In this document: positions 1,545 to 19,988 of the stretch, piece by piece
How the letters are laid out: each line of letters opens with the position of its first letter
Position numbering within the stretch: the stretch's first letter is position 1
Origin: a virus
Length of the DNA: 20,233 bases
IMG/VR virus record: IMGVR_UViG_3300032397_000100
Span: 1-20,233 of that record
Direction: 5' to 3' (one strand)
Program-made: the position numbers and the translations under genes
Notes under the pieces: model-generated
Database searches by the model: none
What the model saw: only the letters and a program-made list of their open reading frames with translations
What the model was told of the DNA's origin: nothing

Positions 1545-1548
1545 AGAC

Positions 1549-1557
1549 CTATTTACC
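1549..1557 (-). promoter_or_regulatory. Weak TAAATAG late-promoter-like box
   Basis: Minus-strand GGTAAATAG sits a few bases upstream of the ATG at 1544. It resembles the TAAATA boxes at 7090-7098 and 13530-13538. A T4-type start site about 6 bases downstream would fall on the start codon itself, so this may be chance or may only overlap the ribosome binding site. Confidence 0.2.
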
Positions 1558-1586
1558 TAGTATGCTTATGCCGCCGGAAACGACTG

Positions 1587-2060
1587 CTATAAATCTAGAC
1601 CACCTCGAATAGATGCATATAGCTTACTTGAATTATCAAACAGCTTTTTCATGTCAATTATCTCATCATCTTTAAGCTTATGCCAAACGTCCTTTTCAGC
1701 CATTTTTTCAAACCTGACAACGGTTCCAGCTGGGCTGATCTTCATGCCCATGATGTGCCGCTGCCAGTGTTGTAAGTGCGTGACAACAAACAAGACGTTC
1801 CATATACAGCCAGAATAGAAAACTTTATCTTTGATATGATAGACCATCTCAATTGTCTCCGGAGACAAGTCAATCTCGAACGGCCGTAAACCGTCAGGTC
1901 TTTTATAGGCATGTGCTTGAAGCCTGAAGTTCTTCTTAACATTTAAGAAAATATCATCAAGCACAAACTTGTTAAAAGTCAGCTCATTGCCGTTTTTGAG
2001 GATATGGTCTAAGACATCTAGATCAACAACGCCTTCGAACTTTAAAAGCTCAAGCTTCAT
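1587..2060 (-). CDS. Unknown 157-aa protein between gp6 and the repeat protein
   Basis: The ORF starts with ATG overlapping the gp6 stop (ATGA at 2057-2060), so translation is probably coupled to gp6. The protein (MKLELLKFEGVVDLDVLDHI) is soluble, of mixed alpha/beta character, with a central Trp/Cys/His-containing stretch (SGCIWNVLFVVTHLQHWQRH) and a Lys/Asp-rich C-terminal helix. No signal peptide or membrane segment is visible. I do not recognise the family. Its place inside the baseplate wedge cluster makes a small structural or assembly role in the wedge the best guess, but that rests on context alone. The coding frame is supported by tight packing: 4-base overlap upstream and about 40 bases to the next gene. 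Confidence 0.8.
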   Translation of the reverse strand: MKLELLKFEGVVDLDVLDHILKNGNELTFNKFVLDDIFLNVKKNFRLQAHAYKRPDGLRPFEIDLSPETIEMVYHIKDKVFYSGCIWNVLFVVTHLQHWQRHIMGMKISPAGTVVRFEKMAEKDVWHKLKDDEIIDMKKLFDNSSKLYASIRGGLDL

Positions 2061-5000: not shown

Positions 5001-5563
5001 AGCACGTTCGAAAGCTCATATTGTTGAAAGACCGTGTCATCGACTTGCATAGATTTGTACGGATCACCGAACGATTTTGTTATTAAGCGATTCATCACTA
5101 GCTGAAATTGTTCACGCCAAAGAGAGTTGCTAGGATCAGCCCACTTGATGACACGGTTAGCTAACGAGTTACCTTGTGAGTCACGTACATCCTCTGACAC
5201 AGAGACTGATGTAACCTTGACTAGACCACGAAGCGGCAAGTTACGTGAAGCTGTGTATGAGATGAGCTTCGCTAGGCGAAGGATGCTTTGCTTGCGCTGA
5301 GCCGTAGGCATGAGGTTTTCATGCGCGGTCATGTCAACACGGTAAGAATGCTGTTCAGCTACGTATGAGAAGAGCTCGATCAGCGCGATAAGCTGGCTTG
5401 ACTCGATGTAGTCGTTGAAGTTCTCAGGATAGTTGAGCTTTAAGTAGTCGAGCAGAGACTGCTTGACCGAGTCATAGTCATATGCTGTAAAGTTGACTTG
5501 CTCGAAAGCTTTATAGACTCGATCCCAAGTCTCTGCAACGTAAAGAAGCTTATTCGTCGTCAT
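2057..5563 (-). CDS. 6: Baseplate wedge protein, gp6-like, oversized (1168 aa)
   Basis: The N-terminal 120 residues match the gp6 pattern: 'LLDYLKLNYPENFNDYIESS', then LIALIELFSYVAEQHSYRVDM, then a helix ending in a LISYTASRNLPLRG-type segment. In T4, gp6 is a wedge protein that forms the inner baseplate ring with gp25 and gp53. The C-terminus (about 1040-1168) resembles the gp6 dimerisation domain: a KIKLLFG strand, LRVKVLDIINAYF, and a final IFMSAAELKDIMVIGGIDHV. T4 gp6 is 660 aa, so about 500 residues are extra. Part of the extra is a beta domain at about 685-750 with ETWTIEIVDATLGTFSVFGS, YDNGLISFII and YIGDAFIITV. The start has GGAAG 8 bases upstream and overlaps the end of the 42-aa gene. 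It lies three genes downstream of the late-type promoter at 7090-7098. Confidence 0.9.
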   Translation of the reverse strand: MTTNKLLYVAETWDRVYKAFEQVNFTAYDYDSVKQSLLDYLKLNYPENFNDYIESSQLIALIELFSYVAEQHSYRVDMTAHENLMPTAQRKQSILRLAKLISYTASRNLPLRGLVKVTSVSVSEDVRDSQGNSLANRVIKWADPSNSLWREQFQLVMNRLITKSFGDPYKSMQVDDTVFQQYELSNVLEVDANATSFVNGTLPIKLNVNGAQTPFELVPSDIDENGVFERSPNPRNYFSILYGDDGFGDGSSMTGFMMFIKQGTLKKTQFAFDAPLPNRILDIAVPGVNDVDVWLQEVSEAQELLAEWDIVQNINGQNLAFNTLKSMKKYEVETLENDSIRVVFGSGDFSEIPVGFFNLWVRSSDSGGMTVSKELLMNQALTFAYTSKQGNRETCTLSVSLVSALQNSAPSEDIEHIRSAAPAVYYAQDRMVNGQDYNSYMLQDSSILRLKAVNRTFAGQPKYIEWNDASGAYQNVKVFGDDSRMYYDISQTAETSTLSSRSLIDELLEPALSDPGIYNLLVYAFYESASPLNLAYIRPRTKFIEDVEQEINGFPLQEKTLIQGALDRHWYGEPDYLVSLGPDFTTGTSPKTYYGVVNEDTDQRVYDANIQMVTVASNIYTPVPLPGYVSGVQEAATRQMRFGIRFKPDRSFASELVINSASVLTISSPDLLTSADITQGVAEEETWTIEIVDATLGTFSVFGSHSGIQSGGTVGTPYDNGLISFIIDFPPAALSTALYIGDAFIITVIESGITFLLEPTIYKKNLTGVFELIDESILSPDAETLAYDVNDEIASWVLIVQRVDDVDGNVSYWRLTRRNFQLIIESPTTKFWYNEESYIVDPDTKKRVHDLVKLLKSNLSSTGTPLGTDQAYFVVGPTRFNSGEINYNSLLISPSDVSSDYYSGDGRPAAPFQFLDFIGDSGYVYFSKNQETGDLTPIPTTVYLETLEYTNDESGIYVRKLGRDDLDFLWLHYAPNENMIDPSTSNLVDMFVLTRGYYSRMADYLRGITALEPVPPTPFELRTSYRTLLESKMISDTVVLHPAKIKLLFGDKAVPELRAKLKLVKAPSSKLTEGQLRVKVLDIINAYFSIENWDFAQDFYGTELSAVIHKSLAPHLLSVVLVPEFPNNWFGDLLYVRSAPDEIFMSAAELKDIMVIGGIDHVTLRQKP

Positions 5564-5678
5564 GGTGTTTCTTCCAGTTTGGTCCAGCAGTCGAATGCAG
5601 CACCAAAGCGCCGAGCACGGTGCACGTGAAGAAGAACATTATTGAGAACGGTAACCACACCAAGCTAGCAGGTTTCAT
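5550..5678 (-). CDS. Small one-helix membrane protein, 42 aa
   Basis: This short ORF lies between gp25 and gp6. Its ATG at 5678 overlaps the gp25 stop codon (ATGA), a GGGGAG run lies 3 bases upstream, and its TAA lies just inside the gp6 coding start. The product begins MKPASLVWLPFSIMFF and continues with a hydrophobic stretch through about residue 27 (TCTVLGALVL), then a polar tail ending WKKHHDDE. One transmembrane helix is evident, with the charged tail probably cytoplasmic. The stop-start overlaps on both sides argue for real translation. Function is unknown. Position within a late operon would fit a small holin-like or membrane-associated protein, but nothing in the sequence proves that. 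Confidence 0.6.
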   Translation of the reverse strand: MKPASLVWLPFSIMFFFTCTVLGALVLHSTAGPNWKKHHDDE

Positions 5679-6049
5679 CGGCTCCCCACTTCTATGTAGA
5701 GGTCTTCGACCACGTTAAATTCTTTGTATCTTACTTTAGCTGAAGCTATCAAAGCATTCTTGTCTTTTGCAACGATGATGTCTAGCGCGAGCATCTCGAC
5801 TCGCGGATCATGCTCGATGACAGTTGTCACGTCTTCACGAATCACTTCCTCCGTCTCGCTGTCATTAGGTTCAAACACCAAGAGCGGAATCCTCGTGCCA
5901 TAAGTAGGCATGTTAAGACGTTCGCCACGAATGGTAAAAATCTCATTCATCAAGTCTTCTTGAATGCACTTGACATCATAGATTCCAAAGCCGCCGCCCT
6001 TCTCTTCGTAGCTTCGTGTCGAGAAACCTCGGTAATAGATTTTTTTCAT
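5675..6049 (-). CDS. 25: Baseplate wedge protein gp25
   Basis: The 124-aa product has the full gp25-like fold signature. It shows an N-terminal GFGIYDVKCIQEDLMNEIFT region, a conserved RGERLNMPTYGTRIPLLVF block (about 41-59), and the EHDPRVEM motif (about 79-86), followed by VRYKEFNVVEDLYIEV. In T4-type baseplates gp25 is the wedge component that contacts gp6 and gp53 and starts sheath assembly; homologues occur in all contractile injection systems. The length is close to T4 gp25 (132 aa). Its ATG overlaps the stop of the preceding 332-aa gene (ATGA), and its own stop overlaps the start of the 42-aa gene. Confidence 0.95.
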   Translation of the reverse strand: MKKIYYRGFSTRSYEEKGGGFGIYDVKCIQEDLMNEIFTIRGERLNMPTYGTRIPLLVFEPNDSETEEVIREDVTTVIEHDPRVEMLALDIIVAKDKNALIASAKVRYKEFNVVEDLYIEVGSR

Positions 6050-7044
6050 TTGCGAGCTTTAGCCAAGAGAGCGATGCGAGCACGTTCTTTTAGCTTGTTA
6101 GTAACAACGCTTTTATAGTCAGCTTCTAAGTCTGTGATTCGTTTCGGGTTCACGTCGATGATTTCGTTTGCGAGAGCTTCGTCAACATCGACATTCAGTT
6201 TGGTTAACCAGCTAAGGCCTGCAAACGCGCCGATCTTAACAGCTAGCTCAGACGAGATGTATTCGCTTAAGTCAACTTCATGAAATCCTACGACACGGCT
6301 TGCTGCTGCTTCCCACGCGCTGTCTAAGTCTCCTGACACGTTAAAGATATGATCGACGATGCGTTTTACTGAAGCATGATCATCTTTGATCATGTCTATC
6401 AAGTGTCGAGTAATAGCGAATTCTTTAGTCCCGGTTATGGTTATGTCGACCAAATGATGAGGATCAAATGTTTTAATGATGTCTTCTTCCAAGAAAGCTA
6501 CACCGATACGGTGCTTTTTCGCTGTAGCAACAAAAGCATCTTGTAGCTTTGAAGTCAACTTGTGATAACCGAATGTCTGTGCAAACCACCGTTTGAACTC
6601 ATAAGTGTCAAGAGCTTGCTCAGTTCGACCGCGCTTGTGATGTACATTCTTGATCAAGCTGGTGACTTTCTTTTCAATCATCTCAGGATCAATGTCATCA
6701 TATTTGACAGCTGAGAACACGCCGTTCTTCTTAGCATCAGCTTCGAAGATATCATACAGCTTCGGGTAAGATTCACAGAGCGATCGTACCTCTTGCGGCA
6801 AGATGTGCATGTCTTTAAGACCTATAAACTGCTTAGAGTCAAAGTTGAAACGCATAGCTTTATAGTTTCCCTGGCCGCTTTTTTCACGATCGATGAAGTA
6901 ACATCTTGTCCCGTACTTATACGGTTGATAGTTTTCATCATCGAAGAACACATAGTTGAAGAACTTGACCGCATGCTTAGTCTTAGCTTCGATCACGCGA
7001 AGCTCATTAGTGTCAATGTGAACGGTAGCATCTTTTGACGCCAT
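6046..7044 (-). CDS. Unknown 332-aa protein between the spike and gp25
   Basis: I do not recognise this protein. It is soluble and charged, with an N-terminal beta-rich part (about 10-70, including FFDDENYQPYKYGTRCYF) and a mostly helical, Lys-rich remainder ending KERARIALLAKARK. The frame is open up to an ATG at 7083, but the late-type box CATAAATAG at 7090-7098 would start transcription at about 7084, making that ATG leaderless. I therefore prefer ATG at 7044 (MASKDATVHIDT), which has GTGAGGAC immediately upstream, although that spacing is short. The stop overlaps the gp25 start. Being first behind an internal late promoter and coupled to gp25, it may be a baseplate or baseplate-assembly protein; that is inference from position. 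Confidence 0.75.
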   Translation of the reverse strand: MASKDATVHIDTNELRVIEAKTKHAVKFFNYVFFDDENYQPYKYGTRCYFIDREKSGQGNYKAMRFNFDSKQFIGLKDMHILPQEVRSLCESYPKLYDIFEADAKKNGVFSAVKYDDIDPEMIEKKVTSLIKNVHHKRGRTEQALDTYEFKRWFAQTFGYHKLTSKLQDAFVATAKKHRIGVAFLEEDIIKTFDPHHLVDITITGTKEFAITRHLIDMIKDDHASVKRIVDHIFNVSGDLDSAWEAAASRVVGFHEVDLSEYISSELAVKIGAFAGLSWLTKLNVDVDEALANEIIDVNPKRITDLEADYKSVVTNKLKERARIALLAKARK

Positions 7045-7089
7045 GTCCTCACGAAAAGTTAAGAGCTCGCAGATTAAAGTCATGATAAG

Positions 7090-7098
7090 CTATTTATG
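7090..7098 (-). promoter_or_regulatory. Late-type promoter box CATAAATAG
   Basis: Minus-strand CATAAATAG in the 25-base gap between the spike gene and the 332-aa gene. T4 late promoters consist of a single TATAAATA-like element read by gp55, and a gp55 gene is present at 13637. Transcription would start close to 7084 and cover the 332-aa gene, gp25, the 42-aa gene and gp6. Confidence 0.55.
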
Positions 7099-7108
7099 AC
7101 ATGGAGCA

Positions 7109-8740
7109 TTAGCCTTGATACTTCTTGTTTCTAGGAGTCTTGCATTTTTCTTCATCTTCGTCTCGAATATAAGGTGTTGACTCATGCAAGGGGACAATCA
7201 TCTTCGCTTTGATCTCGTCAAACTCAATCTCACCTATCTCTTCAGCCGCTTCAGCCATGTCAGCGCCTCTAGCACCTCCAGCCGGGGAGCCGCCTGGATC
7301 GGTGTCTGATTGTTGAATAGGGTTGTCAGCATAGAGGCTCATCTCATCACCAGATGCGTTCAAGCTCTTGCCCTTGAGGTTTAAAGTGCCGTCAGCTTCA
7401 ACATTGACATCGTCGCCTTTGATGTTGACAGCTGAACCTTCGATATTGATCCCGTCACCTGCTGCTTTAAAGTCAATGCTCTCGTTAGATGACAGCTTGA
7501 CGTTGCTTGACATCGAACGAATCTCGATGTTTTCTTGAGCTGTCATCTTGATGAAACTCTCGTCTGAACGAAGCTCTATCCCTTCGCTTGAGTGAAAATG
7601 AATCTTGCTTGTTTCAGAGCCGCCTTCTTCAGCATAGTCTCTCACATATCCTAGAGGTTGACCGCTGTAAGGAGGTTTATGACATTCAGCTGACTCAGGA
7701 ATTGCATCTCCTATCTCACCGTTTATAGTCTTAAGATGTAAGTCGCGAGAAGCCGTCAGCTTGATGTTAGCGTGAGTAGAGAGCATCTCGATGTTAAGCT
7801 TACCTTGGATCTTGACAGCTCGCTCTTCAGACTGGATGTTGACCCTCTTCTTCGCGACGATGTTGATGTTCTCATCAGAGTAGAGGTTGATGTCATTTTC
7901 AGAGTGTATGTTAAACTTCGAAGCTGTGTAGAAGTAGATCTTGCCGCTACCTTCATCTATCTCGATCCAGTTGCGTCCCTTCGCGGTCGAGATGTAGATT
8001 CGCTCATTAGTGTCATCGAGGATGATCTGGTTACCTTCTGTCGTGCGGATCCTTGTTCGACAGTATTCATCGATGTCAGACATCAAGATGTAGTGTTTCC
8101 CAGGTGTCGTGATCGAGTACATCTGAGAGTCAGCTTTCTCTGGCTCTAACGGTTTTGGAAAGTATCCGTTGTCTGTAGGCTTGACCTTGTTCTTGTTTGA
8201 CGGGTGAGAGACTGAACGCTCATATGAACCTCTCGTGCGATAATGAGGATCATCCTTGTAAAGCCCAGCTTCAGTCTGATTGACTTTGTAAGTATCGAAC
8301 TCATTTTGACCGTAGAAACCTGATTCATCTATCTCAGTCTTCATCCCGTCATCATCTATGCCAGCAGGTAATGTTCGATTATGCTCAGGCATGAACATGC
8401 ACCCGATAAAAAATCTATTTTCAGGATTACCGTCAAGAAAACCTATGATGATCTGAGCCCCGTTTTTAGGAATCGCCCACATCCCATAAGCAGAGATTCC
8501 TGCAACTTCTGTTTGCTCTCGCCCTATCTTAAAGTTTGCTGTTGTGCCGCCGAACGGAGAAACATACCAAGCCCACGGTAAGTCTTCTACCTTAAAGTCT
8601 TCTGAGTCAATCGAAGGACAAAAAGCTTGTACTCGACCATGATGAGCAGGATCAGCATTATTTTTCACGATACCGACAGTCATGAACAGCTGCTGACCGT
8701 AGGTAGAAATACCTTGGGCTTTTTTGTTTAGCTCTTTCAT
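7109..8740 (-). CDS. 5: Baseplate central spike, gp5-like without lysozyme domain (543 aa)
   Basis: Residues about 15-125 form the gp5/VgrG OB-fold: MTVGIVKNNADPAHHGRVQAF, then WAWYVSPFGG and GMWAIPKNGAQIIIGFLDGN. Residues about 210-340 and 375-470 are a beta-helix with short repeated strands such as FNIHSENDINLYSDENINI, GIELRSDES and INIEGSAVNIKGDDVNVEAD. A Gly-rich linker (about 481-492) precedes a tail with PLHESTPYIRDED. In T4, gp5 carries a lysozyme domain between OB-fold and helix; here only about 80 non-catalytic residues fill that place. The protein would form the trimeric membrane-piercing needle on the gp27 hub. Its ATG overlaps the stop of the gp27-like gene. Confidence 0.9.
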   Translation of the reverse strand: MKELNKKAQGISTYGQQLFMTVGIVKNNADPAHHGRVQAFCPSIDSEDFKVEDLPWAWYVSPFGGTTANFKIGREQTEVAGISAYGMWAIPKNGAQIIIGFLDGNPENRFFIGCMFMPEHNRTLPAGIDDDGMKTEIDESGFYGQNEFDTYKVNQTEAGLYKDDPHYRTRGSYERSVSHPSNKNKVKPTDNGYFPKPLEPEKADSQMYSITTPGKHYILMSDIDEYCRTRIRTTEGNQIILDDTNERIYISTAKGRNWIEIDEGSGKIYFYTASKFNIHSENDINLYSDENINIVAKKRVNIQSEERAVKIQGKLNIEMLSTHANIKLTASRDLHLKTINGEIGDAIPESAECHKPPYSGQPLGYVRDYAEEGGSETSKIHFHSSEGIELRSDESFIKMTAQENIEIRSMSSNVKLSSNESIDFKAAGDGINIEGSAVNIKGDDVNVEADGTLNLKGKSLNASGDEMSLYADNPIQQSDTDPGGSPAGGARGADMAEAAEEIGEIEFDEIKAKMIVPLHESTPYIRDEDEEKCKTPRNKKYQG

Positions 8741-10371
8741 GAAGGATCTTTATATGTGAGAGTGATCAGCTGTTCAAATTTTCCGCCGGAGAAGACATTT
8801 GTCACTGTGTAAAGCAAGTAATACCCGGTGTAGTAAAACTGCCTACGTTGGCCAAAATCATCTAGCATGAAGGTGTTGACTTTAACCCAAACTCCGCCTG
8901 TCGTGTTAAACATGTCTTTTGACCCGTCAGGATACGGGGTGCATAAGTCGAGGATGCCTTTATGTCCTCTGATTCTCATCGTCTGCTGAGGATGTACAGA
9001 TCCACGAAAGTTTGCAAATGTATCATATGCCATCCTCATAGACGGTACGTCTTTGACGAGCAGCATGTTGAGACCCATCCTCTCTACCAGAGGATTTGTA
9101 GCTAAGTAAGCTATATCACCTTCAAGAGCCTCTATGAAATTTTTCATAGGTTTCAAGCTGATGATCTTCGGGCGCGTGATGTCTTCGTGTACTACATCAT
9201 TAACATATGCTTCTGGCTTATAAGTCTGGAGCGTCGAACCAAAGTTGACGTTATAGTCAGTGCCAAAGTCTGTGTCAGTAGCCATCCAATTGATCAATGT
9301 CGGGAATGCTACCTCATAATCAATGATGTCAACGTTTTTACCTGCACCTGCAAAATAATAGTCAAAGACAAACTCATGTTCAGCTCCGCCTTTATAGACT
9401 TTGATGTCAAATACTATCTCTACCTCGCCGTCTTTTTTATAAACCCTGGGTATGATAACAGGCATCCAAGCGCCAGGATGTAGTTGTTTTGCATAAGCTT
9501 CTTTTGAAGCACCGATCATGCTATTGACTTCTGATGAACGAGTAAGGATGTCAAAGATGAACTCACCGATCTCTTTCTTAGAGTCAAATGTCAACTTCTT
9601 TTTATCATCTGGCGCAAATGAGTTCTTAAAAATTACATCTAACTCACCTCCTATCTCAGAATCTAAGAGGATAGTGTACTTAAAAGGTCTCGCATTATTA
9701 TGGTTACATAAACGATTTGTATAAGTTTCATCATAATTTTCTTGAAGCTTTGTTTGAAGTAAACCGATGGCTTCTTGAACGGTGTTTGCCTCAAAAGACA
9801 TATTTTTGTCTGTAAAAGCAAAGTTCATCTGTGAACCGCGAGGACCGTTACGAGTCGCAGCTAGCGAGCTCTCCATCGCTAGCTTCATGTTGTATATCGA
9901 ACCGATATGATTAACTGTTGAGCTAAGATCATACAACGTACCTGCGATGAGATTGCTGTACATTGTTTGAATCGTGTTGTCAGGATATCGTCCTACAAAG
10001 ATAGGTTTCAAGACAAAGATCAAGCTTGAAAAGTCTTTAATGTCATACATTCCTCTGAGAGCTTGAATCTTTTCCATGAATCCGAAGCCACCAGGTTCCG
10101 TTACAACCAAGTCACATACTCCGTAAGGAACTAAAACTTGAGTTCTCGAAGTCATGTTACATGATGCTGTATATCTTACATTGTCAATGACTTGGTGCGC
10201 GTCTTTCCTGGTGTTGATAAGCAGTGTTCCGTTCGGCGACCAACGCGTTGTTTTAGCATTCGCGTCACTGCCGTCTAGCTCTAGCAAGACATTCCAGTCT
10301 TTATGAGCATGCAGCTCAAAGTGATAGGTATATGTTACAAACCTATCAAGGGGGTTGGCTGGTGTCGCCAT
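8737..10371 (-). CDS. 27: Baseplate hub protein, gp27-like (544 aa)
   Basis: The C-terminal region reads GGVWVKVNTFMLDD, then FYYTGYYLLYTVTNVFSGGKF and EQLITLTY. That is the strand pattern of gp27/gpD/gp44-type hub proteins, in which the last tube-like domain ends with a 'Y-x-V-x-x-V-x-H/F-x-x-x-G-x-F' segment. The gene is directly upstream of and coupled to the gp5-like spike, the conserved hub-spike order. At 544 aa it is longer than T4 gp27 (391 aa). A central region (about 230-350) rich in Lys/Glu beta strands may account for the extra length. The start has GAGG 8 bases upstream, and the gp53 stop is only 1 base away. I infer that it forms the trimeric hub linking tail tube and spike. Confidence 0.75.
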   Translation of the reverse strand: MATPANPLDRFVTYTYHFELHAHKDWNVLLELDGSDANAKTTRWSPNGTLLINTRKDAHQVIDNVRYTASCNMTSRTQVLVPYGVCDLVVTEPGGFGFMEKIQALRGMYDIKDFSSLIFVLKPIFVGRYPDNTIQTMYSNLIAGTLYDLSSTVNHIGSIYNMKLAMESSLAATRNGPRGSQMNFAFTDKNMSFEANTVQEAIGLLQTKLQENYDETYTNRLCNHNNARPFKYTILLDSEIGGELDVIFKNSFAPDDKKKLTFDSKKEIGEFIFDILTRSSEVNSMIGASKEAYAKQLHPGAWMPVIIPRVYKKDGEVEIVFDIKVYKGGAEHEFVFDYYFAGAGKNVDIIDYEVAFPTLINWMATDTDFGTDYNVNFGSTLQTYKPEAYVNDVVHEDITRPKIISLKPMKNFIEALEGDIAYLATNPLVERMGLNMLLVKDVPSMRMAYDTFANFRGSVHPQQTMRIRGHKGILDLCTPYPDGSKDMFNTTGGVWVKVNTFMLDDFGQRRQFYYTGYYLLYTVTNVFSGGKFEQLITLTYKDPS

Positions 10372-10372
10372 G

Positions 10373-10738
10373 TTAAAGCCTCATCGAGGGAACACCGCCT
10401 ACAGTTGACGGGTCAACTTTGTAATAGCTGTCAACTTTTGATTGAGTCGGGATGAGAAGCTCTCTACCTGCAATCAGCTCAGATGCTGGATCCAAGATTC
10501 CGTTGTATTGACAGATGATCCACCAAAAACCTACATCACCGTAAAAAGCATATGAGAGAAGGTCTGGACGTCCTACATATTTTTCTTCCATCACATAAAG
10601 CAAGTCTGAAGTATCTTGGAGAACTGTTCTTTTGTTCCACCACTCTAAAAACTTGGCTGAAATTTCAGTAGCCCCACCTCTAACATACCTGCCGTTTTTC
10701 TCATTATAAGTTGAGTTTTTAATTGTCTGATCTGTCAT
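10373..10738 (-). CDS. 53: Baseplate wedge protein gp53
   Basis: This 121-aa product carries the gp53 core: a WWNKRTVLQDTSDLLYVMEEKYVGRPDLLS stretch, then YAFYGDVGFWWIICQYNGI, LDPASELIAGRELLIPT. The FWWIICQYNGI-then-GRELLIPT pattern is LysM-like and typical of gp53 homologues. In T4, gp53 clamps the gp6-gp25-gp7 inner ring. The frame extends to a GTG at 10747, but ATG at 10738 has AGGTGG five bases upstream and lies one base after the stop of the preceding gene, so it is the likelier start. T4 gp53 is 196 aa, so this is a short version. Confidence 0.85.
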   Translation of the reverse strand: MTDQTIKNSTYNEKNGRYVRGGATEISAKFLEWWNKRTVLQDTSDLLYVMEEKYVGRPDLLSYAFYGDVGFWWIICQYNGILDPASELIAGRELLIPTQSKVDSYYKVDPSTVGGVPSMRL

Positions 10739-10739
10739 C

Positions 10740-11645
10740 TTAACCACCTACAATCGAAGGAGGAGGAAGTCCGCTCGAACGAGCGAATGAGTCTACGACT
10801 GTGTTAGAAACCGGCAGCGAAGGTGCAGGTGCCTGCAAAGGAGGACCAAGCGTTGGGCCGATACCAGAAACAAAAGGATTTCCTGTTGTAGGAAGCTGAG
10901 CCGTGACTTCTACAACCTCTGCGCTGTTATAGCTTGCTACAGACGAGCTGGCGTTCGCGACCAAAGCTAAACCTAAATCTATAGGGTTGTTGACAGCCTG
11001 GTTAAGAATATTTGCGATACCAGTGATGATAGGAACAACAGGCATCGTGATGTTTGCGATAGACAACGGATCAGCGGTAGTTCTTGCGTTGCCAAAATCT
11101 GTCCAAAAGGCTCCGCTGATGCCAGGCCCGCCTCCTCCTTTAAATGCTCCTCCTCCTGAAGCTGAAAGTCTCCAAGCGCCACCTGTAACTTGAGACGCGC
11201 TATAAACTTCATCAAGCTCTAATGAAAGCTGACCGATGATCGGCATAGCTTGTCCTGCTTGCCAGATGTAATCAACTTCGTCAGGGAAGTTCCACCCATA
11301 GCTTCTTAGAACACACTGTCTACCGTGAATGTTGTTATGCCTAAAAGCATAAATTTTTAAGATAGGTGGAGTAGCTCCTGTAAATCCAAAGTCTGGAAGT
11401 AACCACTTTCTAGCAAGGTCAAGGTAGCCTGCATTTGCTTGTGCTTCGAGAGGAGTTCGTGAAACGAGCTTTCCTTGAATACCCCATTTCCGGCCGTCCG
11501 TGTTACGATATGCAATAATAGAAGTAGGAAGATGAACTATGTTAAAACCTTCATAGTTTGCATTGCGTGACTCATTCAACGGTGATGACGCTTCGAAAAC
11601 AATCTGACCTCCAGGTCCTTTGATTTTTATCTTGTAGCTGCTCAT
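10740..11645 (-). CDS. Tail-tube initiator/cap protein, gp48/gp54-like
   Basis: The 301-aa product has a core (about 45-155) with RTPLEAQANAGYLDLARKWLLPDFG, then PPILKIYAFRHNNIHGRQCVLRSYGW and MPIIGQLSLELDEVY. This resembles the tube-fold end of T4 gp48/gp54, where a strand ending in xxLxxxEI/LDEV follows an 'xxxGPCQI-like' strand. These proteins sit between baseplate hub and first tail-tube ring. After residue 165 it turns into a Gly/Ala/Pro-rich, low-complexity tail (GGGAFKGGGGPGISG, then PPLQAPAPSLPVSNT), which may be flexible. Gene order next to gp53 and the hub supports a baseplate role. The assignment to gp48 rather than gp54 cannot be made from sight. Confidence 0.55.
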   Translation of the reverse strand: MSSYKIKIKGPGGQIVFEASSPLNESRNANYEGFNIVHLPTSIIAYRNTDGRKWGIQGKLVSRTPLEAQANAGYLDLARKWLLPDFGFTGATPPILKIYAFRHNNIHGRQCVLRSYGWNFPDEVDYIWQAGQAMPIIGQLSLELDEVYSASQVTGGAWRLSASGGGAFKGGGGPGISGAFWTDFGNARTTADPLSIANITMPVVPIITGIANILNQAVNNPIDLGLALVANASSSVASYNSAEVVEVTAQLPTTGNPFVSGIGPTLGPPLQAPAPSLPVSNTVVDSFARSSGLPPPSIVGG

Positions 11646-12787
11646 GCTGTTCTCTTAGGTTGTGCTCTCTTGTAAGGCACGCTAAATTGGTCAATTGCCA
11701 GAGGAAGGATAGGGCCTCGAGCGATCAAGGTGTTTTGCTCAGTTGCTTCTGTGACAAAGTTTCCAAACTCATCATGCAGCTGCTCTTCGTAGATAGGCTC
11801 AGAACCGTTTGTCTTTCGTTTGATGCCGTTCGGTTCAGCTGGGTCATATATGATGATGTCATCAGCATAAAAAGGACCGCGTGTCACGTCATTAAGCTCG
11901 AAGCCGTAGTAGTCTTTCACATAAAGCTGGTTGTTAGTCATGTCATCGAGCGATGACACCTCATTAACCATGACACCGGTGTTATGCGGTGGATTATTCT
12001 GTTTGCTGTTTGAAACTGTCTTTGGCAAGCTAGCGTGTCCTAAGTAATCATATGTCCACGCCAAAGGCTTGCTGTTCTCGTCAAACTGCTGACGCCAAAG
12101 TTCTGTTCCTGAGCGAGACCCGCTAGGCAAGAGCCTCGAACCGTTAAACACAGTTCGCGTTGTTTGAACTGTGTCACCTGTGACGATGTCTGTGAGGCTG
12201 ACTGGTGCGGTGCCGATCGTAGGTGTCGCGGTAGCGAGCAAGTCAAGCACGTCTTGCCAAGGTACTAGCTTATACGACGGTAGAAACCTAAAGACGATGT
12301 ATTGCTCATAAAAGTTAACAGGTGCTAAAGCTGAATACCCTCCTGTGCTTCCTGAAGTAGGACCGGTCGCTAATGATTGAACTTCAAACGAGAATGCATC
12401 AACTACCCGAAGCACTTTCAAACGAGCTTCAGGGGTTGTAGTGTTGTAGATGTCTACCACGTCTCCTACATGAAGATGATGATGCACCGTGTCTGTCAGC
12501 ACGATCTTGTTAACCGTGCGCACCCAGGGCACGACACGTGCTGGTCGGCGCTGATCAGACGGGCGACCTTCATCTTTGTAGATGCCGATCAAGATTCGTC
12601 GGCCGTTCCGAGTCCAAATTTTCGCGCCTAGCTCAGGAACAGGAGCTATCACCGAGTCACAAGCATAGTCTGAGTTATTGTTCGGCCTGTAAACTAAGCA
12701 GAAGCTAGGAATGACAAAGTCCTCTCGCCACATCGAGTACACGTCATAGCCTGGGTCAAACGGTTGATCAAGCCCTGGCGAGCTCAT
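11642..12787 (-). CDS. Unknown baseplate-cluster structural protein with HLHVGD beta domain (381 aa)
   Basis: The protein is beta-rich, with many Pro, Tyr and Asp residues and no membrane segment. Residues about 88-140 contain VNKIVLTDTVHHHLHVGDVVDIYN followed by ARLKVLRVVDAFSFEVQS. This is the 'H-x-L-x-V-G-D ... V-x-x-V ... F-x-V' beta module that recurs in phage tail and fibre proteins. The rest is not recognisable. It starts with ATG overlapping the stop of the nucleotidyltransferase gene and ends overlapping the start of the gp48/54-like gene, so it is translationally coupled on both sides. A structural role in baseplate or tail is inferred from operon position and composition. An AAGG lies about 9 bases upstream of the start. 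Confidence 0.7.
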   Translation of the reverse strand: MSSPGLDQPFDPGYDVYSMWREDFVIPSFCLVYRPNNNSDYACDSVIAPVPELGAKIWTRNGRRILIGIYKDEGRPSDQRRPARVVPWVRTVNKIVLTDTVHHHLHVGDVVDIYNTTTPEARLKVLRVVDAFSFEVQSLATGPTSGSTGGYSALAPVNFYEQYIVFRFLPSYKLVPWQDVLDLLATATPTIGTAPVSLTDIVTGDTVQTTRTVFNGSRLLPSGSRSGTELWRQQFDENSKPLAWTYDYLGHASLPKTVSNSKQNNPPHNTGVMVNEVSSLDDMTNNQLYVKDYYGFELNDVTRGPFYADDIIIYDPAEPNGIKRKTNGSEPIYEEQLHDEFGNFVTEATEQNTLIARGPILPLAIDQFSVPYKRAQPKRTA

Positions 12788-13479
12788 GCTTTGAGGCCTT
12801 TAGGTTTCGGTTTCTTTACTTGGTTTAGCTTGCTAAAGAGCATCTCAGCGATGGTCTCGTCATATTTTCCAAAGAACTCTTTAAACAATGACTTGACCCT
12901 GTCATCATTTTCAGCCTCAGCCGCTTTGATCAAGGCTTCACGAACTTTCGTGCCTGAGAGATGACCGACATGAGAGTCAGAGACAACGTAGTACATCGTG
13001 CCGTTAATCTCGTCATTGACAGCAAATAAGTCAGGGCTCTCTTTCTCAAACGACGCAGGCTTGCCTTGCTTGGTAGTAGGATAACGTTCAAAGTACTTTG
13101 AGCTACGATAACGATCAAGGTCTTTTGACCCTACTACCATGATACAGACAGTCGGGCCTTTGTACAAGTTGAGAATCTCAACTGGGCTGAATGTCGGGTT
13201 CTTGCACTGTACTACATGATCACTATCAATGTCATACAACCTGACCATCACCTCTTTACGTTCTTCGAACGTTAGAGGTGAAACATCACCTTTAGCCGGG
13301 TCAAAGTTAGTCTTGTTTGATGTAGCAATCCAAACGGATTCTGAGCCAAAAGCTTTACATAAACGTTTGTAAACTGTATAGTGGCCACGATGAAATGGTT
13401 GAAATCTTCCTCCATAGATGACGGCAGGAAGCTTTCGTTCAAGCTTTTCGAGCAGCTGTTTGATCAACCTTGATGACAC
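12784..13479 (-). CDS. Cytidylyltransferase-like nucleotidyltransferase (NMN adenylyltransferase type)
   Basis: This 231-aa protein has the HxGH-type nucleotidyltransferase signature GGRFQPFHRGH (about 22-32), which binds the triphosphate nucleotide, and a C-terminal LSGTKVREAL segment (about 174-183) equivalent to the ISSTxxR motif. Family members join a nucleotide to a phosphorylated partner with release of pyrophosphate, for example NMN adenylyltransferases in NAD synthesis. The true substrate here cannot be read from sequence. The start is GTG with GAGG five bases upstream. It is the first gene behind the late-type promoter at 13530-13538 and the head of the baseplate operon, an odd place for a metabolic enzyme. 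Lys/Pro-rich C-terminus (KKPKPKGLKA). Confidence 0.85.
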   Translation of the reverse strand: MSSRLIKQLLEKLERKLPAVIYGGRFQPFHRGHYTVYKRLCKAFGSESVWIATSNKTNFDPAKGDVSPLTFEERKEVMVRLYDIDSDHVVQCKNPTFSPVEILNLYKGPTVCIMVVGSKDLDRYRSSKYFERYPTTKQGKPASFEKESPDLFAVNDEINGTMYYVVSDSHVGHLSGTKVREALIKAAEAENDDRVKSLFKEFFGKYDETIAEMLFSKLNQVKKPKPKGLKA

Positions 13480-15560: not shown

Positions 15561-17465
15561 ATGAGTGATCTTACTTTCAAGTCGCTGACTTTTCAAAACT
15601 TCATGTCCTTCGGGAACGTACCGGTCATGATCAGCTTTGAGAAACCAGGGACTTGCTTCATCACAGGCGAGAACTTAGATGACGGCGGCTCGTCAGGTGC
15701 AGGTAAGACCACGCTGATCAACGCGCTGTCATACGTGCTATTTGACAAGGTGCCTGACAAGATCTCAAAAGAACGGCTGATCAACCGCACGAACAAGGAC
15801 GAGAAGAAGACCGTCATGGAGGTCACTCTCAACCTGACCAAAGGTGGGGATGAGTACCTCATCAAGCGGTTTCGAGGACAAGAGACCGGTTACAAGCTGA
15901 TCCACGTCAACCACCCTGAAGAAGCCGACAAGGACATCACGAACGCAGGTGGGTTCAACTCTTCTGTCGAAGAGTTGATCGGGTTCTCATATGAGCTCTT
16001 CAAACAGATCATCCTCTTCAACGGAAACTCTGCACCGTTTCTAAGCTTGCCAGTAGGTGACCAACGCGACCTGATCGAAGAGCTGCTTAAGATCACCTTG
16101 CTCTCGCGCAAGGCTGAAGCGCTGAAGAAGCTCATCACGACCATTGACCAAAATATCAAGATTCAAGAGGCTTTGGTCGCGCAACAAAAAGTTCAGCTTG
16201 AGAAGCAGAAGAAGCAGGTGCAAGAAGCCGAAGGACGTGTCGTGGCGTGGGAGGATGGGCATGAAAACCGGTTGAACGACGAACGTGCAAAGCTTGCTCA
16301 AATCGAAGCCGTAGACTTCGAGGCTGAAGAGCAGCGGCACGCGGAGCTGGCCGAGTTAAATGTAGCACACATCGAAGCCACTTCCGCGCTTCAGCTTATT
16401 GAGAACCAGAAGCGAGCGAAGAACAGCGAACTGCTTCAGTTTCCGAAGAAGACAGAGCTAGCGCTGCTGAAGTCTACATACACAGAACAGCAACGCGACC
16501 ATGTAAAAGTCATCACTGAGCTAAAACATCTACGAGACGCCAAGTGTCCGTACTGCTTACAGAAGTTCGCTGATGCGAAGACGAAAATCAAGGACCTTGA
16601 GAGCAAGCAAGCGAGCCTCGACGAGTCTAATAAGACTGCCGTGACAGGCATCGCTGAATGTGAGCAAGCTGAAGTTGACTACAACGCTAAAGTCACAACT
16701 GAGCTGACCGCTATCATAGATGAGCTTAAGGCTAAGCAAGCTGAGCTCGACGCGCTAAACAGCGCTGCTAAAGAGCTAAAGAGAACGCTCGCTTATCCTG
16801 ATTTGAAGAGCGCGCTCGCAGCGAAGAACGCGAAAGCGATGTTGATCGCGAACATCTCAACGGTCGAAGCGGAGGCTAACCCGCACGTAGACGCTCTCGA
16901 GACTTTGTTAGCGAGCGGTGACTCGAAGGTTGACACGGCTGAGCTTGACTCGATAGTACGCTTGAAGGAGCACTATCAGCTTCTCCTCAAGCTCCTAACC
17001 GACAAGAACTCGTTCATCCGCAAGGCTATCATCAGCAAGACCTTGCCGTTCCTCAACAAGCGGATCGCGTTCTACACCGAACGCTTAGGTTTGCCGCACG
17101 TAGTCAAGTTTCAGCCTGACATGAGCTGCGAGATCACACAGTACGGTCGAGACCTCGATCACGGTAACTTGTCAAACGGGCAGAAGAAGCGACTGAACCT
17201 CTCGCTCTGCTTCGCCTTCCGAGACGCGCTGACCTACTTGCACTCAAAGGTCAACGTGCTCTTCACAGATGAGATCGACGGCGGCTCGCTCGATGAGCAG
17301 TCTGTTAACCTAATGATCGGCTTGCTGAAGCATAAGGCATGGGATGACGCGATCGGCATCTACATCATCTCGCATCGGCCAGAGTTTGACGGTCGGTGTG
17401 ACCGCAACGTGGTAGTCCGGCTCGAAGGTGGGTTCTCGACCATCATCGAGCAAGCGGAGGATTGA
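15561..17465 (+). CDS. 46: Recombination endonuclease subunit gp46 (Rad50/SbcC-like)
   Basis: The 634-aa ATPase has Rad50 architecture. Walker A is at about 43-51 (GSSGAGKTT), preceded by an unusual acidic/Gly insert (ENLDDGG). A long coiled coil (about 185-480) is broken by a CPYC zinc hook at 329-332. The C-terminal half has the ABC signature LSNGQKKR (537-544), Walker B VLFTDEIDGGS (566-575) with the following D-loop, and the H-loop IISHRPEF (His605). It pairs with gp47 to resect DNA ends. T4 gp46 is 560 aa, so the coiled coil is somewhat longer. The upstream ribosome binding site is weak, suggesting coupling to the preceding gene. The stop overlaps the next gene (TGATG). Confidence 0.93.
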   Translation: MSDLTFKSLTFQNFMSFGNVPVMISFEKPGTCFITGENLDDGGSSGAGKTTLINALSYVLFDKVPDKISKERLINRTNKDEKKTVMEVTLNLTKGGDEYLIKRFRGQETGYKLIHVNHPEEADKDITNAGGFNSSVEELIGFSYELFKQIILFNGNSAPFLSLPVGDQRDLIEELLKITLLSRKAEALKKLITTIDQNIKIQEALVAQQKVQLEKQKKQVQEAEGRVVAWEDGHENRLNDERAKLAQIEAVDFEAEEQRHAELAELNVAHIEATSALQLIENQKRAKNSELLQFPKKTELALLKSTYTEQQRDHVKVITELKHLRDAKCPYCLQKFADAKTKIKDLESKQASLDESNKTAVTGIAECEQAEVDYNAKVTTELTAIIDELKAKQAELDALNSAAKELKRTLAYPDLKSALAAKNAKAMLIANISTVEAEANPHVDALETLLASGDSKVDTAELDSIVRLKEHYQLLLKLLTDKNSFIRKAIISKTLPFLNKRIAFYTERLGLPHVVKFQPDMSCEITQYGRDLDHGNLSNGQKKRLNLSLCFAFRDALTYLHSKVNVLFTDEIDGGSLDEQSVNLMIGLLKHKAWDDAIGIYIISHRPEFDGRCDRNVVVRLEGGFSTIIEQAED

Positions 17466-17758
17466 TGAGGCCTAGCCGTCCAGGTGAAGTAATCTGCAAG
17501 TGTAGCGTGTATCGCTTCCCCCATAAGCAGTTCGGCGGACGATGCACGCTTCTTCGTTGGGTCGCGACTTTCTTCAGCGAACGTCACAGAGTATGCGACG
17601 ATTGCATCAATTACGTAGAACATGAATGTCAGTGCGTGACTGGAGTTGAACAACCTACTCACTGTCCTGAGCTTAGGAGCTACATCAGCTTCGAAGAGAT
17701 CAAGCTGAACGGCGAGGCTAGGCTCATGATGGAGCGGTCAACGAAGAGCTATAAATGA
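17465..17758 (+). CDS. Cys-rich small protein, possible zinc-binding (97 aa)
   Basis: ATG at 17465 overlaps the gp46 stop, with GGAGG four bases upstream. The product has eight Cys and several His: C11-x-C13, H20, C27, C44-x2-C47, H53, C55-x-C57, H66 and C67. This density suggests one or two structural zinc sites. Arg-rich stretches nearby (FSERHRVCDDC) could bind nucleic acid. I do not recognise the family. It is the last gene of the gp55-gp47-gp46 run, so a role with recombination or replication is possible. Its final codons (SYK, stop) lie inside a 13-base sequence repeated at 18325-18337, and overlap the 3' end of the opposing gene by 10 bases. Confidence 0.65.
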   Translation: MRPSRPGEVICKCSVYRFPHKQFGGRCTLLRWVATFFSERHRVCDDCINYVEHECQCVTGVEQPTHCPELRSYISFEEIKLNGEARLMMERSTKSYK

Positions 17759-17759
17759 T
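17747..17759 (+). repeat. Left copy of 13-base direct repeat AGCTATAAATGAT
   Basis: AGCTATAAATGAT is identical to 18325-18337. The match extends left as ACGAAG (17741-17746 against 18318-18323), with one extra C in the right copy. The two copies bracket the AT-rich minus-strand gene, and the left copy contains the stop codons of both convergent genes. It includes TATAAATG, close to a T4 late promoter. Confidence 0.7.
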
Positions 17760-18270
17760 CGTCGGGAATGGTAGCTTGATGGCGCATTGACTTTCTATAT
17801 TCAACATCTGCATCGCTCAACCTTTTGTCTATCTTTTCTTTTTTCTCAAGCTGATCAAAGTAGGATATGACATCCTTATAGCTAGTAGCATCAAAACCTT
17901 TCAAATTTACGTATGCTATTTGTAATTTCTGTATTAGATGCATTGATTCTTTGGCCCACGCGCTGTGGTCGCCGGTGTCTTTAGATTTTAATTTTGCTTT
18001 CGCAAACTCATTAAGTTCATTAACTGCTATCTTGAGTAGCTCTTTTCGATCTGCGGTTTCTGTCGCTTTGAAAAGAGCCCTGCATGTCTTTATAATCACG
18101 TAAAAGTCTTTGTTGCTAATATCCAGATCTTTAAGAAAGTCTTTAACATTTTTCCTAAAATTCTCTGGGCTCACAGTCTTCATGTAAGTCGGGTTAAAGG
18201 ACTTGATTGCTAAAATTTCGCTAAGAGGTACTTTGATACCAGCTAGTTGACGAATGCGATCGATATCCAT
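17749..18270 (-). CDS. Unknown AT-rich 173-aa protein, possible inserted cargo gene
   Basis: Start chosen at ATG 18270 (MDIDRIRQLAGIKV) with AAGGG seven bases upstream. An upstream ATG at 18297 lies at the expected transcript start of the late-like box at 18298-18305 and lacks a binding site. The product is helical, Lys/Asp-rich and soluble, with no known motif that I can see. Its base composition differs sharply from neighbours: 17821-17880 has 19 G+C of 60, while 17401-17460 in gp46 has 37 of 60. It is the only minus-strand gene between two plus-strand runs, and is bracketed by direct repeats. These features suggest later acquisition. Function unknown. Confidence 0.7.
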   Translation of the reverse strand: MDIDRIRQLAGIKVPLSEILAIKSFNPTYMKTVSPENFRKNVKDFLKDLDISNKDFYVIIKTCRALFKATETADRKELLKIAVNELNEFAKAKLKSKDTGDHSAWAKESMHLIQKLQIAYVNLKGFDATSYKDVISYFDQLEKKEKIDKRLSDADVEYRKSMRHQATIPDDHL

Positions 18271-18297
18271 GATAAACCCTTTAGAGTTGCTGTGCAT

Positions 18298-18305
18298 TAT
18301 TTAAT
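18298..18305 (-). promoter_or_regulatory. Late-like promoter box ATTAAATA
   Basis: Minus-strand ATTAAATA lies about 28 bases upstream of the 173-aa gene start at 18270. A start about 6 bases downstream (near 18292) would give a short leader with AAGGG. It gives the gene its own late promoter against the surrounding transcription. Confidence 0.35.
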
Positions 18306-18324
18306 GGGTGATGAGTTACGAAGC

Positions 18325-18337
18325 AGCTATAAATGAT
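18325..18337 (+). repeat. Right copy of 13-base direct repeat AGCTATAAATGAT
   Basis: Identical to 17747-17759. Here it lies in non-coding DNA 23 bases upstream of the 87-aa gene, so this copy is well placed to act as a TATAAATG late-type promoter. Confidence 0.7.
18327..18335 (+). promoter_or_regulatory. Late-type promoter box CTATAAATG
   Basis: Plus-strand CTATAAATG matches seven of eight bases of T4's TATAAATA. A start about 6 bases downstream leaves a short leader that carries AGGAG (18348-18352), seven bases before the ATG at 18360. It would drive the 87-aa, 212-aa and 123-aa genes. Confidence 0.45.
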
Positions 18338-18359
18338 TCTATAGCATAGGAGATTCCAT

Positions 18360-18623
18360 ATGAAAAACGTCACATCAGCATTCCTCGACAAGGTTCCAGG
18401 CGACATCGCAGACGCCATCTTAGTCGAACAAGCATCAGCCGCTATGACAGAAAAACTCGCAAAGGTCCGAGACGAGAAGGGTCGAAGTGGGTGGCACAAG
18501 CCTTCTTGCTCGACCGATGACTTGATGTCTAAGCTGCTCGCAAAGGTGGAGGAGGGAGACATGGTCGACGTGATGAACTATGCTGCCATGATCTATGTGC
18601 GTAACGAGCTCTACAGTTCATGA
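18360..18623 (+). CDS. Conserved phage protein of GW-x-x-x-x-C type, 87 aa
   Basis: ATG at 18360 has a good AGGAG seven bases upstream. The central part reads KGRSGWHKPSCSTDDLMSKLL followed by EEGDMVDVMNYAAMIYVR. This is the 'GR-x-GW ... C ... L-x-x-L-x-x-H/K-V-x-x-GD-x-x-DV-x-N-x-x-M' pattern that I recall from many small phage proteins, some annotated near MazG-like or dATP/dGTP pyrophosphohydrolase proteins. The biochemical role of the pattern is not established to my knowledge. The stop overlaps the start of the next gene (ATGA), so it is coupled to the nuclease candidate. Confidence 0.75.
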   Translation: MKNVTSAFLDKVPGDIADAILVEQASAAMTEKLAKVRDEKGRSGWHKPSCSTDDLMSKLLAKVEEGDMVDVMNYAAMIYVRNELYSS

Positions 18624-19258
18624 GCTCCCCGGAACTTACTGAAGTTCGAACCGTAGAACCGGTCGACGAAGAGAAACCGCGCAAGAAAGCTGTCAACGGC
18701 AAAGCGAAAGGTTCAGGCTTTGAAAACACGATCGCGAAGCTCTTGTCAGCAAAGTTCACGCCTCTTGAGTTCAGGCGCTCACAGTCATCAGGCGCTATCC
18801 TCGGTGGGCAAAATCACGTGTTCTTGCACAAGTTCTCTGACCACGCAAAGGCGCTGTTCATCGGCGATGTAGTGCCGACTAATGAGGCTGATGTAGCCAG
18901 AGATGAAGGCTGGAGGTTTCGCTTCACGCTCGAGTGCAAGTTTTACAAAGACGTAGACACTCTTAGCCAGCTCTTTAAGAACCCGCAAGTGACCGCGTGG
19001 TATGAGCAAGCTAGGATCGATGCCGCGAAGATCCCAGACAAGCTTCCGCTTCTCATCTTTAAGTTCAACCACACTCACGTGTTTTGCGCGTCCGATGCTG
19101 AGCTGACAGAACCTCCTAAAGCTTGTACTACCATCATTAGAATGTGGTACAATAGTAAAGAAGGAGAGCGAAGGTCAATCTACATCATGCTTCTCGATGA
19201 AGTGCTAAGAGACTTAAGCTGGTTAAAAACTGACGTACCTAAAGGGATCCTCTCATGA
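18620..19258 (+). CDS. PD-(D/E)XK nuclease candidate, resolvase-like (212 aa)
   Basis: The protein has the ordered PD-(D/E)XK motifs: KGSGFENTIAKLL with Glu35, FIGDVVP with Asp83, TLECKFYK with Glu105-x-Lys107, and an AWYEQARIDA helix with Gln130. RRSQSSGA before the Asp strand is similar to the substrate loop of phage and archaeal resolvase-type members. Such enzymes cut DNA using a metal ion; Holliday-junction resolvases and repair nucleases belong here. The N-terminus (about 1-27) is charged and probably disordered. Location after the gp46/gp47 run suggests a DNA-branch or end-processing role, perhaps in place of T4 endonuclease VII, which I do not see in the window. Substrate is unproven. 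Confidence 0.7.
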   Translation: MSSPELTEVRTVEPVDEEKPRKKAVNGKAKGSGFENTIAKLLSAKFTPLEFRRSQSSGAILGGQNHVFLHKFSDHAKALFIGDVVPTNEADVARDEGWRFRFTLECKFYKDVDTLSQLFKNPQVTAWYEQARIDAAKIPDKLPLLIFKFNHTHVFCASDAELTEPPKACTTIIRMWYNSKEGERRSIYIMLLDEVLRDLSWLKTDVPKGILS

Positions 19259-19655: not shown

Positions 19656-19711
19656 GCCAAGGTAGTCTCGGAAAACTTTTGACTGCTCCTGTGTGATGTA
19701 AGACGAGCTCC

Positions 19712-19727
19712 CGCCCCTGGCGGGGCG
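19712..19727. terminator. GC-rich stem-loop CGCCCC-TGGC-GGGGCG
   Basis: A perfect 6-bp all-GC stem with a 4-base loop. It lies in the convergent gap between the 123-aa gene and the gp51-like gene, next to a second palindrome. No U-tract follows on either strand, so it may slow polymerase or protect RNA ends rather than be a classic terminator. Confidence 0.45.
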
Positions 19728-19730
19728 AGT

Positions 19731-19748
19731 GGCGGCGGATCCGCCGCC
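19731..19748. terminator. Perfect 18-base palindrome GGCGGCGGATCCGCCGCC
   Basis: Fully self-complementary; as RNA it forms a 7-bp stem with a GATC loop. It starts three bases after the minus-strand gp51-like stop codon, where a 3' end structure would be expected, and is followed on the plus strand by AATTTA only. Together with the hairpin at 19712 it could act on both strands. Confidence 0.5.
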
Positions 19749-19751
19749 AAT

Positions 19752-19988
19752 TTACCAGAATACCGGCACCTGCTTCTTCAGCAGCTCGCCGACCTCCTTG
19801 AAGCGCTTGTTGAGAAACTCAACAGCCTTCTCCCGCTCGATGGGTGTCATCGCCCACATGTCATCTCGTGACAGCGAGCCTCTAAAGTAATACTGAAGTT
19901 GAAAAAGCGTGTCGATCAACACTTCGTTGTCTCGGGCGAACGAGTTGATGACCTGTGCGATAATCTGTTGGTCATGAGTCCCGATCAC
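19752..19988 (-). CDS. Small baseplate-hub assembly protein, gp51-like
   Basis: The 78-aa product starts with GTG overlapping the stop of the gp26-like gene (GTGA). It reads LIDTLFQLQYYFRGSLSRDDMWAMTPIEREKAVEFL, then an NKRFKEVGELLKKQ helix. The 'YY-x-x-G-x-S-x-x-D-x-W/Y-x-M-x-x-x-E-R' pattern resembles the small gp51 or tail-assembly-chaperone proteins encoded next to gp26 in T4-type phages. In T4, gp51 helps hub assembly without staying in the particle. The product is much shorter than T4 gp51 (249 aa), and similarity is by pattern only, so the name is tentative. The stop lies right before the palindrome. Confidence 0.5.
   Translation of the reverse strand: MIGTHDQQIIAQVINSFARDNEVLIDTLFQLQYYFRGSLSRDDMWAMTPIEREKAVEFLNKRFKEVGELLKKQVPVFW

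Follow-up and report, generated by a model that had tools for sequence, protein, structure and literature searches.

A gene with late-like codon usage between direct repeats at the gp46–rusA junction of a jumbo T4-like phage and its putative capsid-targeting sequence

Introduction

The window analyzed here, a stretch of 20,233 bp that makes up a whole IMG/VR record and is a fragment of a larger genome, derives from a jumbo T4-like phage and raises a question at one locus (Table 1): how did a lone minus-strand gene come to lie among plus-strand genes, and what does its 173-aa product do? The plus-strand genes encode a gp55-like late sigma factor (phrog_234), a 375-aa protein at the gp47 position, gp46, a Cys-rich protein, an 87-aa protein and a RusA-like protein. 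The reading that we favor, and that we judge to be evenly poised, is that a late virion-class gene inserted at the leader of the rusA operon with duplication of ∼19 bp of target, and that its product is a capsid-targeted internal head protein.

Table 1. Features of the locus and its surroundings (window coordinates)
Feature	Coordinates	Strand	Remarks
T4-like structural run	1–13479	−	
gp46-like recombination endonuclease subunit	15561–17465	+	phrog_77 E 3e-88; left anchor of the variable junction
Cys-rich 98-aa gene	17462–17758	+	PHROG 5016 family; phrog_5016 E 6e-16
Repeat copy 1, ACGAAG-AGCTATAAATGAT	17741–17759	+	not in promoter position
173-aa open reading frame, orphan	17749–18270	−	lone minus-strand gene between plus-strand genes
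Shine–Dalgarno AAAGGG of the 173-aa gene	18277–18282	−	6 nt upstream
Candidate late promoter TTAAATA	18298–18304	−	27 nt before the start of the 173-aa gene; differs from ATAAATA at one base
Repeat copy 2, ACGAAGCAGCTATAAATGAT	18318–18337	+	position of the relatives' rusA-operon late promoter
87-aa gene	18360–18623	+	PHROG 8298 family; phrog_8298 E 8e-20
RusA-like/PDDEXK_15 resolvase gene	18620–19258	+	phrog_244 E 7e-17; PF24608 E 9e-21

The gp46–rusA junction and the composition of the gene

Judged by gp46, the nearest cultured phages (∼30% identity) are jumbo phages, PA5oct, Atu_ph07 and XacN1 among them. The nearer relatives are all uncultured: L003/G001, L009/G002 (360 kb), L010/G003, and the overlapping pair L011/G004 and L012/G005, which seems to represent a single type of phage. 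They are distant from the window, with rusA products at most 61% identical. In L003, L009 and L010, rusA begins 60–110 nt after gp46 with no Cys-rich, 173-aa or 87-aa gene between them, and in L012 the junction is occupied by two other genes of ∼190 aa each. The junction therefore appears to gain and lose genes.

The initial annotation had suggested looking in related phages for a site that has just one ACGAAG-AGCTATAAATGAT and lacks the gene. No such site was found, and these relatives are also without the Cys-rich and 87-aa genes. Because no relative carries those flanking genes without the 173-aa cargo, we infer, rather than observe, that the gene was inserted here and not lost elsewhere. 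The absence of the Cys-rich and 87-aa genes from the relatives is read from ORF tables of the junction; a search with the phrog_5016 and phrog_8298 profiles gave no match in the relatives, but cannot show absence because the control genomes gave none either. Pseudomonas phage AN14 has a gene with a phrog_8298-like domain immediately next to a phrog_5016-like gene, the latter assigned from its position and from homologues in related phages. Despite the reversed order relative to the window, this arrangement fits the Cys-rich and 87-aa genes having been neighbors before the 173-aa gene arrived.

A strong contrast in composition had also been pointed out, with 19 of 60 G+C at 17821–17880 against 37 of 60 at 17401–17460. 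These counts are exact but selective, as an equally low stretch occurs elsewhere in the window: the 173-aa gene is 37.5% G+C, and the lowest 522-nt stretch outside it, within the structural gene at 9311, is 36.6%. The low-G+C segment is estimated to span 17786–18367 (start CI 17616–17834, end CI 18313–18453), limits that are compatible with the repeats as its borders. Scored per codon, the gene reaches −1.11 under the minus-strand late/structural model, beside −0.98 to −1.09 for the minus-strand late genes under their own model, and under the plus-strand model its score of −1.31 is poorer than that of any other gene. By this measure it resembles the late genes of this or a similar phage. We rejected low G+C as a mark of foreign origin because late structural genes of the phage itself show similarly low G+C and a codon usage close to that of the 173-aa gene.

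The N-terminal tag of the 173-aa protein

Searches of phages (tblastn), IMG/VR, GTDB contigs, the five related records, Pfam, PHROGs and the PDB gave no usable homologue of the 173-aa protein; PDB matches to PBP1 at E 0.008 were judged to be noise from helical composition. A single-sequence AlphaFold model is all-helical, with low confidence (pLDDT 56). As these searches found no homologue of the body of the protein, its proposed function rests on the 18-residue N-terminus. This segment, MDIDRIRQLAGIKVPLSE, fits a tag of the form MDhxRhR[EQ]LAG followed by [LIVM]xE, and LSE at residues 16–18 is a candidate prohead-protease site. In T4, L/I-x-E is the sequence behind which gp21 cleaves, and the peptides at the N-termini of the internal proteins are capsid-targeting sequences (PMC9026906).

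We scanned 2.9 million viral contigs with the pattern MDhxRhR[EQ]LAG and obtained 13 matches on 11 other contigs, some of them near-duplicates, whereas a scrambled control with the same residues (LAG changed to ALG) matched 0 contigs. The matches open ORFs of 57–152 aa, most with a ribosome-binding site, and nearly all are plausible gene starts; the one in L050, inside a longer frame, is doubtful. A [LIVM]xE site falls within residues 11–20 in 10 of 11 tagged proteins, a set that includes the 173-aa protein itself and that of G004, compared with 13% of 572 background proteins. For the strict [LI]xE the figures are 7 of 11 and 10%. In L056 and L057/L059 the tagged genes adjoin those for the portal and the head maturation protease. 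G002 and G004 each have a LAGI/LAGL-tagged gene placed between the protease gene, which it follows immediately, and the scaffold-like and major head protein genes. The tagged genes in L049, L051/L055, L053 and L054/L058 lie outside head modules. A scan of the PA5oct genome found no LAG tag. From these N-terminal features, packaging of the 173-aa protein in the phage head seems probable.

The tag might instead be coincidental, or have another role, in an inserted accessory gene with a different function such as host takeover or anti-defence. In favor of this, no homologue of the protein was found, the junction of L012 is filled by accessory genes, and several tagged genes adjoin RNR, exonuclease or helicase genes and not head genes. 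However, all but one of the tagged proteins also have a protease-like site, and the tag is linked to head operons in four lineages, so that we consider this explanation unlikely, though one to be kept seriously in view.

A packaged 173-aa protein would resemble IPI, IPII and IPIII of T4, being small and accessory and having an L/I-x-E site downstream of a short N-terminal peptide. Both the lineage-shared N-terminal peptide and the L/I-x-E site behind it, as expected of internal head proteins, are present as motif matches. One tag can also stand on unrelated bodies, as in the T4 internal proteins: L051 (4703–5144, minus strand) and L055 (4327–4768, minus strand) carry a tandem pair of small genes whose 20-aa tags are nearly the same (MDI[DN]RMRQLAGVQEQQVTEA), whereas the rest of the two proteins, of 57 and 87 aa, is unrelated. 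In contrast, the tag MDhxRhR[EQ]LAG bears no resemblance to the T4 tag and the bodies have no sequence similarity. Pfam, PHROGs, the PDB and phages yielded no usable match to known internal proteins, but even among the T4 internal proteins the mature parts are strongly diverged (PMC9026906), and so we describe the 173-aa protein as one that would work like a T4-type internal head protein and do not file it as a member of that class.

The two repeat copies and late promoters

As the initial annotation had described, the minus-strand gene is bracketed by a 13-base identical direct repeat, AGCTATAAATGAT, at 17747–17759 and 18325–18337, both on the plus strand and spaced 578 bp apart. ACGAAG lies 5′ of each copy (17741–17746 and 18318–18323) with an indel of one base, an extra C after the second. 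A count of the 13-mer over the 20,233-bp record, which had been proposed as a check, returned only these two exact copies, and none further with up to two mismatches (0.48 expected).

The two copies differ in their setting. The two convergent genes both terminate in copy 1 (plus strand SYK*, minus strand DHL*), a point that the initial annotation did not make: the final codons of the Cys-rich gene, AGC TAT AAA TGA, lie within it (TGA at 17756–17758), as does the TAG of the 173-aa gene (17749–17751, minus strand), and no plus-strand gene is close downstream. Copy 2 is situated 24 nt before the 87-aa gene, as a promoter would be.

As with T4-type late promoters (TATAAATA, sigma gp55), the lineage uses a characteristic word, ATAAATA, and the window has a gp55-like gene. 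In G002, ATAAATA is the top word, found 46 times at 15–45 nt upstream of predicted starts where 2.6 are expected; in the lineage it lies mostly 20–40 nt before the start codon, and it stands just upstream of rusA in L009 and L010. Both repeat copies, in contrast, read ATAAATG, with G in place of the last A of the consensus, and this word occurs 0 times at 15–45 nt upstream of starts in G002 (0.6 expected). Neither copy provides ATAAATA 15–45 nt before a start. The proposal that the repeats double as late promoters is thereby narrowed to copy 2 at best, on account of its position, and is not supported for copy 1, because the word of the lineage is ATAAATA and copy 1 is out of promoter position. 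The TTAAATA on the minus strand is a weak candidate for the 173-aa gene's own promoter, the enrichment of that word being slight (1 versus 0.3 expected).

Copy 2 and the leader that follows align to the gp46–rusA leader of L010 (window CTATAAATGATT-CTATAGCATAGGAG, L010 CTATAAAT-ATTCCCATATCATAGGAG; p about 1e-5), the promoter word being ATAAATA in L010 and ATAAATG in the window; the match to the L009 leader was not significant. Because of this alignment, copy 2 is most likely the rusA operon's own leader with an altered promoter word, and copy 1 a copy derived from it. In L003, the sequence AGCTAGTAAATA looks similar to the repeat, but this likeness was rejected as not significant (p 0.1).

Could the two copies be independent functional elements, such as a pair of late promoters or of leaders that share a sequence preference, and the gene never have been inserted into a duplicated target? 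Their TATAAAT core is promoter-like and A/T-rich, and copy 2 is similar to a relative's leader. We nevertheless regard this as improbable, given that copy 1 overlaps two stop codons with no plus-strand gene nearby, that the likeness reaches beyond the core to ACGAAG, and that G002 does not use ATAAATG as a promoter word.

When the 100-nt flanks on either side of the 173-aa gene were aligned locally, the score was 34, whereas 300 dinucleotide shuffles had a mean of 15.1 and a maximum of 23 (p 1.8e-5 from a Gumbel fit); p rose to 2e-3 when gaps and mismatches were penalized less. Because the gene had been selected in the initial annotation for its repeat, ∼20 gene flanks were in effect inspected, and the repeat withstands this correction under the first scoring and is marginal under the looser one. 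The likeness of the flanks is beyond chance, and the repeat case is a single one. That it is a chance repeat, picked out post hoc beside an ordinary orphan gene, is very improbable, even though a 13-mer pair within 1 kb is not rare somewhere in 20 kb and the looser scoring is less decisive, since the observed score lies well above every shuffle and a single gene is closely bracketed, with a clean joined site.

A possible route of insertion

Under the favored reading, insertion of a gene for an internal head protein, a virion-class gene would have entered the variable gp46–rusA junction at the rusA-operon leader and duplicated ∼19 bp of target. Copy 2 would retain the promoter region of the operon, and copy 1 would be a scar that supplies the stops of both convergent genes. 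Unlike a transposon or homing endonuclease insertion with target duplication, the unit encodes no transposase or endonuclease, and searches of Pfam, PHROGs and the PDB found no transposase or homing endonuclease domain in the 173-aa protein. Short-homology recombination would suffice in a phage that has gp46/gp47-type recombination. The minus-strand gene would be transcribed late, MDIDRIRQLAGIKVPLSE would act as a capsid-targeting sequence that brings the protein into the prohead core, and the prohead protease would cleave it after LSE; the cleaved protein would be kept in the head with the DNA and then ejected into the host, as the T4 internal proteins are. Of the earlier idea that the cargo entered by recombination at a late-promoter sequence, insertion survives as the best reading, with the gene absent from the relatives and the junction variable, but the promoter role of copy 1 does not.

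The locus resembles the PeSL cassettes of T4-type phages (Arbiol 2010; Comeau 2014, both cited through PMC4503421) in having repeated regulatory DNA at the joint beside an exchanged gene. It differs in that its repeat is late-type and not an early promoter, has no stem-loop, occurs in one instance and points against the strand of the cargo. We found no early promoter/stem-loop or promoter/terminator pair of the PeSL type at the repeats (RNA fold z −0.8 and 0.5), and the analogy with such modules that had been drawn earlier is not borne out.

A broader proposal is that late promoter-leaders serve in this jumbo-phage lineage as recombination joints for the exchange of tagged internal head-cargo genes. 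Outside the window it would draw on two consecutive MKL-tagged genes of G002 with a 24-nt identical block around ATAAATA (L032), set in an array of genes whose products are alike at both ends and differ in the middle, and we think it a long way from probable. In a general test of promoters as joints in G002, neighboring ATAAATA sites had hardly any sequence in common outside the core (mean run 8.0 versus 7.7 in far pairs), the sole exception being this 24-nt block. If the favored reading is correct, a second type of capsid-targeting sequence exists that is recognizable by sequence alone, the injected proteins of uncultured T4-like phages could be listed by means of the tag, and the locus shows one such cargo gene with the scar of its insertion still present at the leader of an operon. 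The case is one of gene gain in a known phage type and not a new system.

Other features of the relatives and the window

In the relatives, the late promoter of the rusA-like gene lies inside a 10–12-bp inverted repeat (L009 7932–7977, L010 7123–7167, L037 318–392), with the Shine–Dalgarno sequence in the 3′ arm in L009 and L010 or just past the arm in L037; the RNA folds of the L009 and L010 leaders have z of −5.7 and −5.8. This layout around the rusA promoter is absent from the window. The product of T4 gene 49 is likewise a resolvase. The relatives' layout is that of T4 genes e, soc and 49, of whose transcripts only the late ones are translated well (PMC3014915). At the head maturation protease gene of G004 (L037 9857–9908), ATAAATA lies within 14-bp inverted arms and the Shine–Dalgarno sequence in the 3′ arm.

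Several G002 genes (L032 1–3900, L031 11901 and L017 6908, all minus strand) encode proteins that all begin with MKLKE[IL]LxE and differ in the middle, several of them also having the C-terminus EEYAKL in common; they are possibly a second set of capsid-targeted cargo. A cytidylyltransferase-like gene, possibly of the NadM type, lies between the structural run and the gp55 gene of the window (12784–13479, minus strand) and is also found in L003 and L009. Finally, two strong G+C-rich hairpins lie between convergent genes at 19705–19755 of the window, one of them with the perfect palindrome GGCGGCGGATCCGCCGCC (fold z −2.9), and possibly form a two-way terminator.
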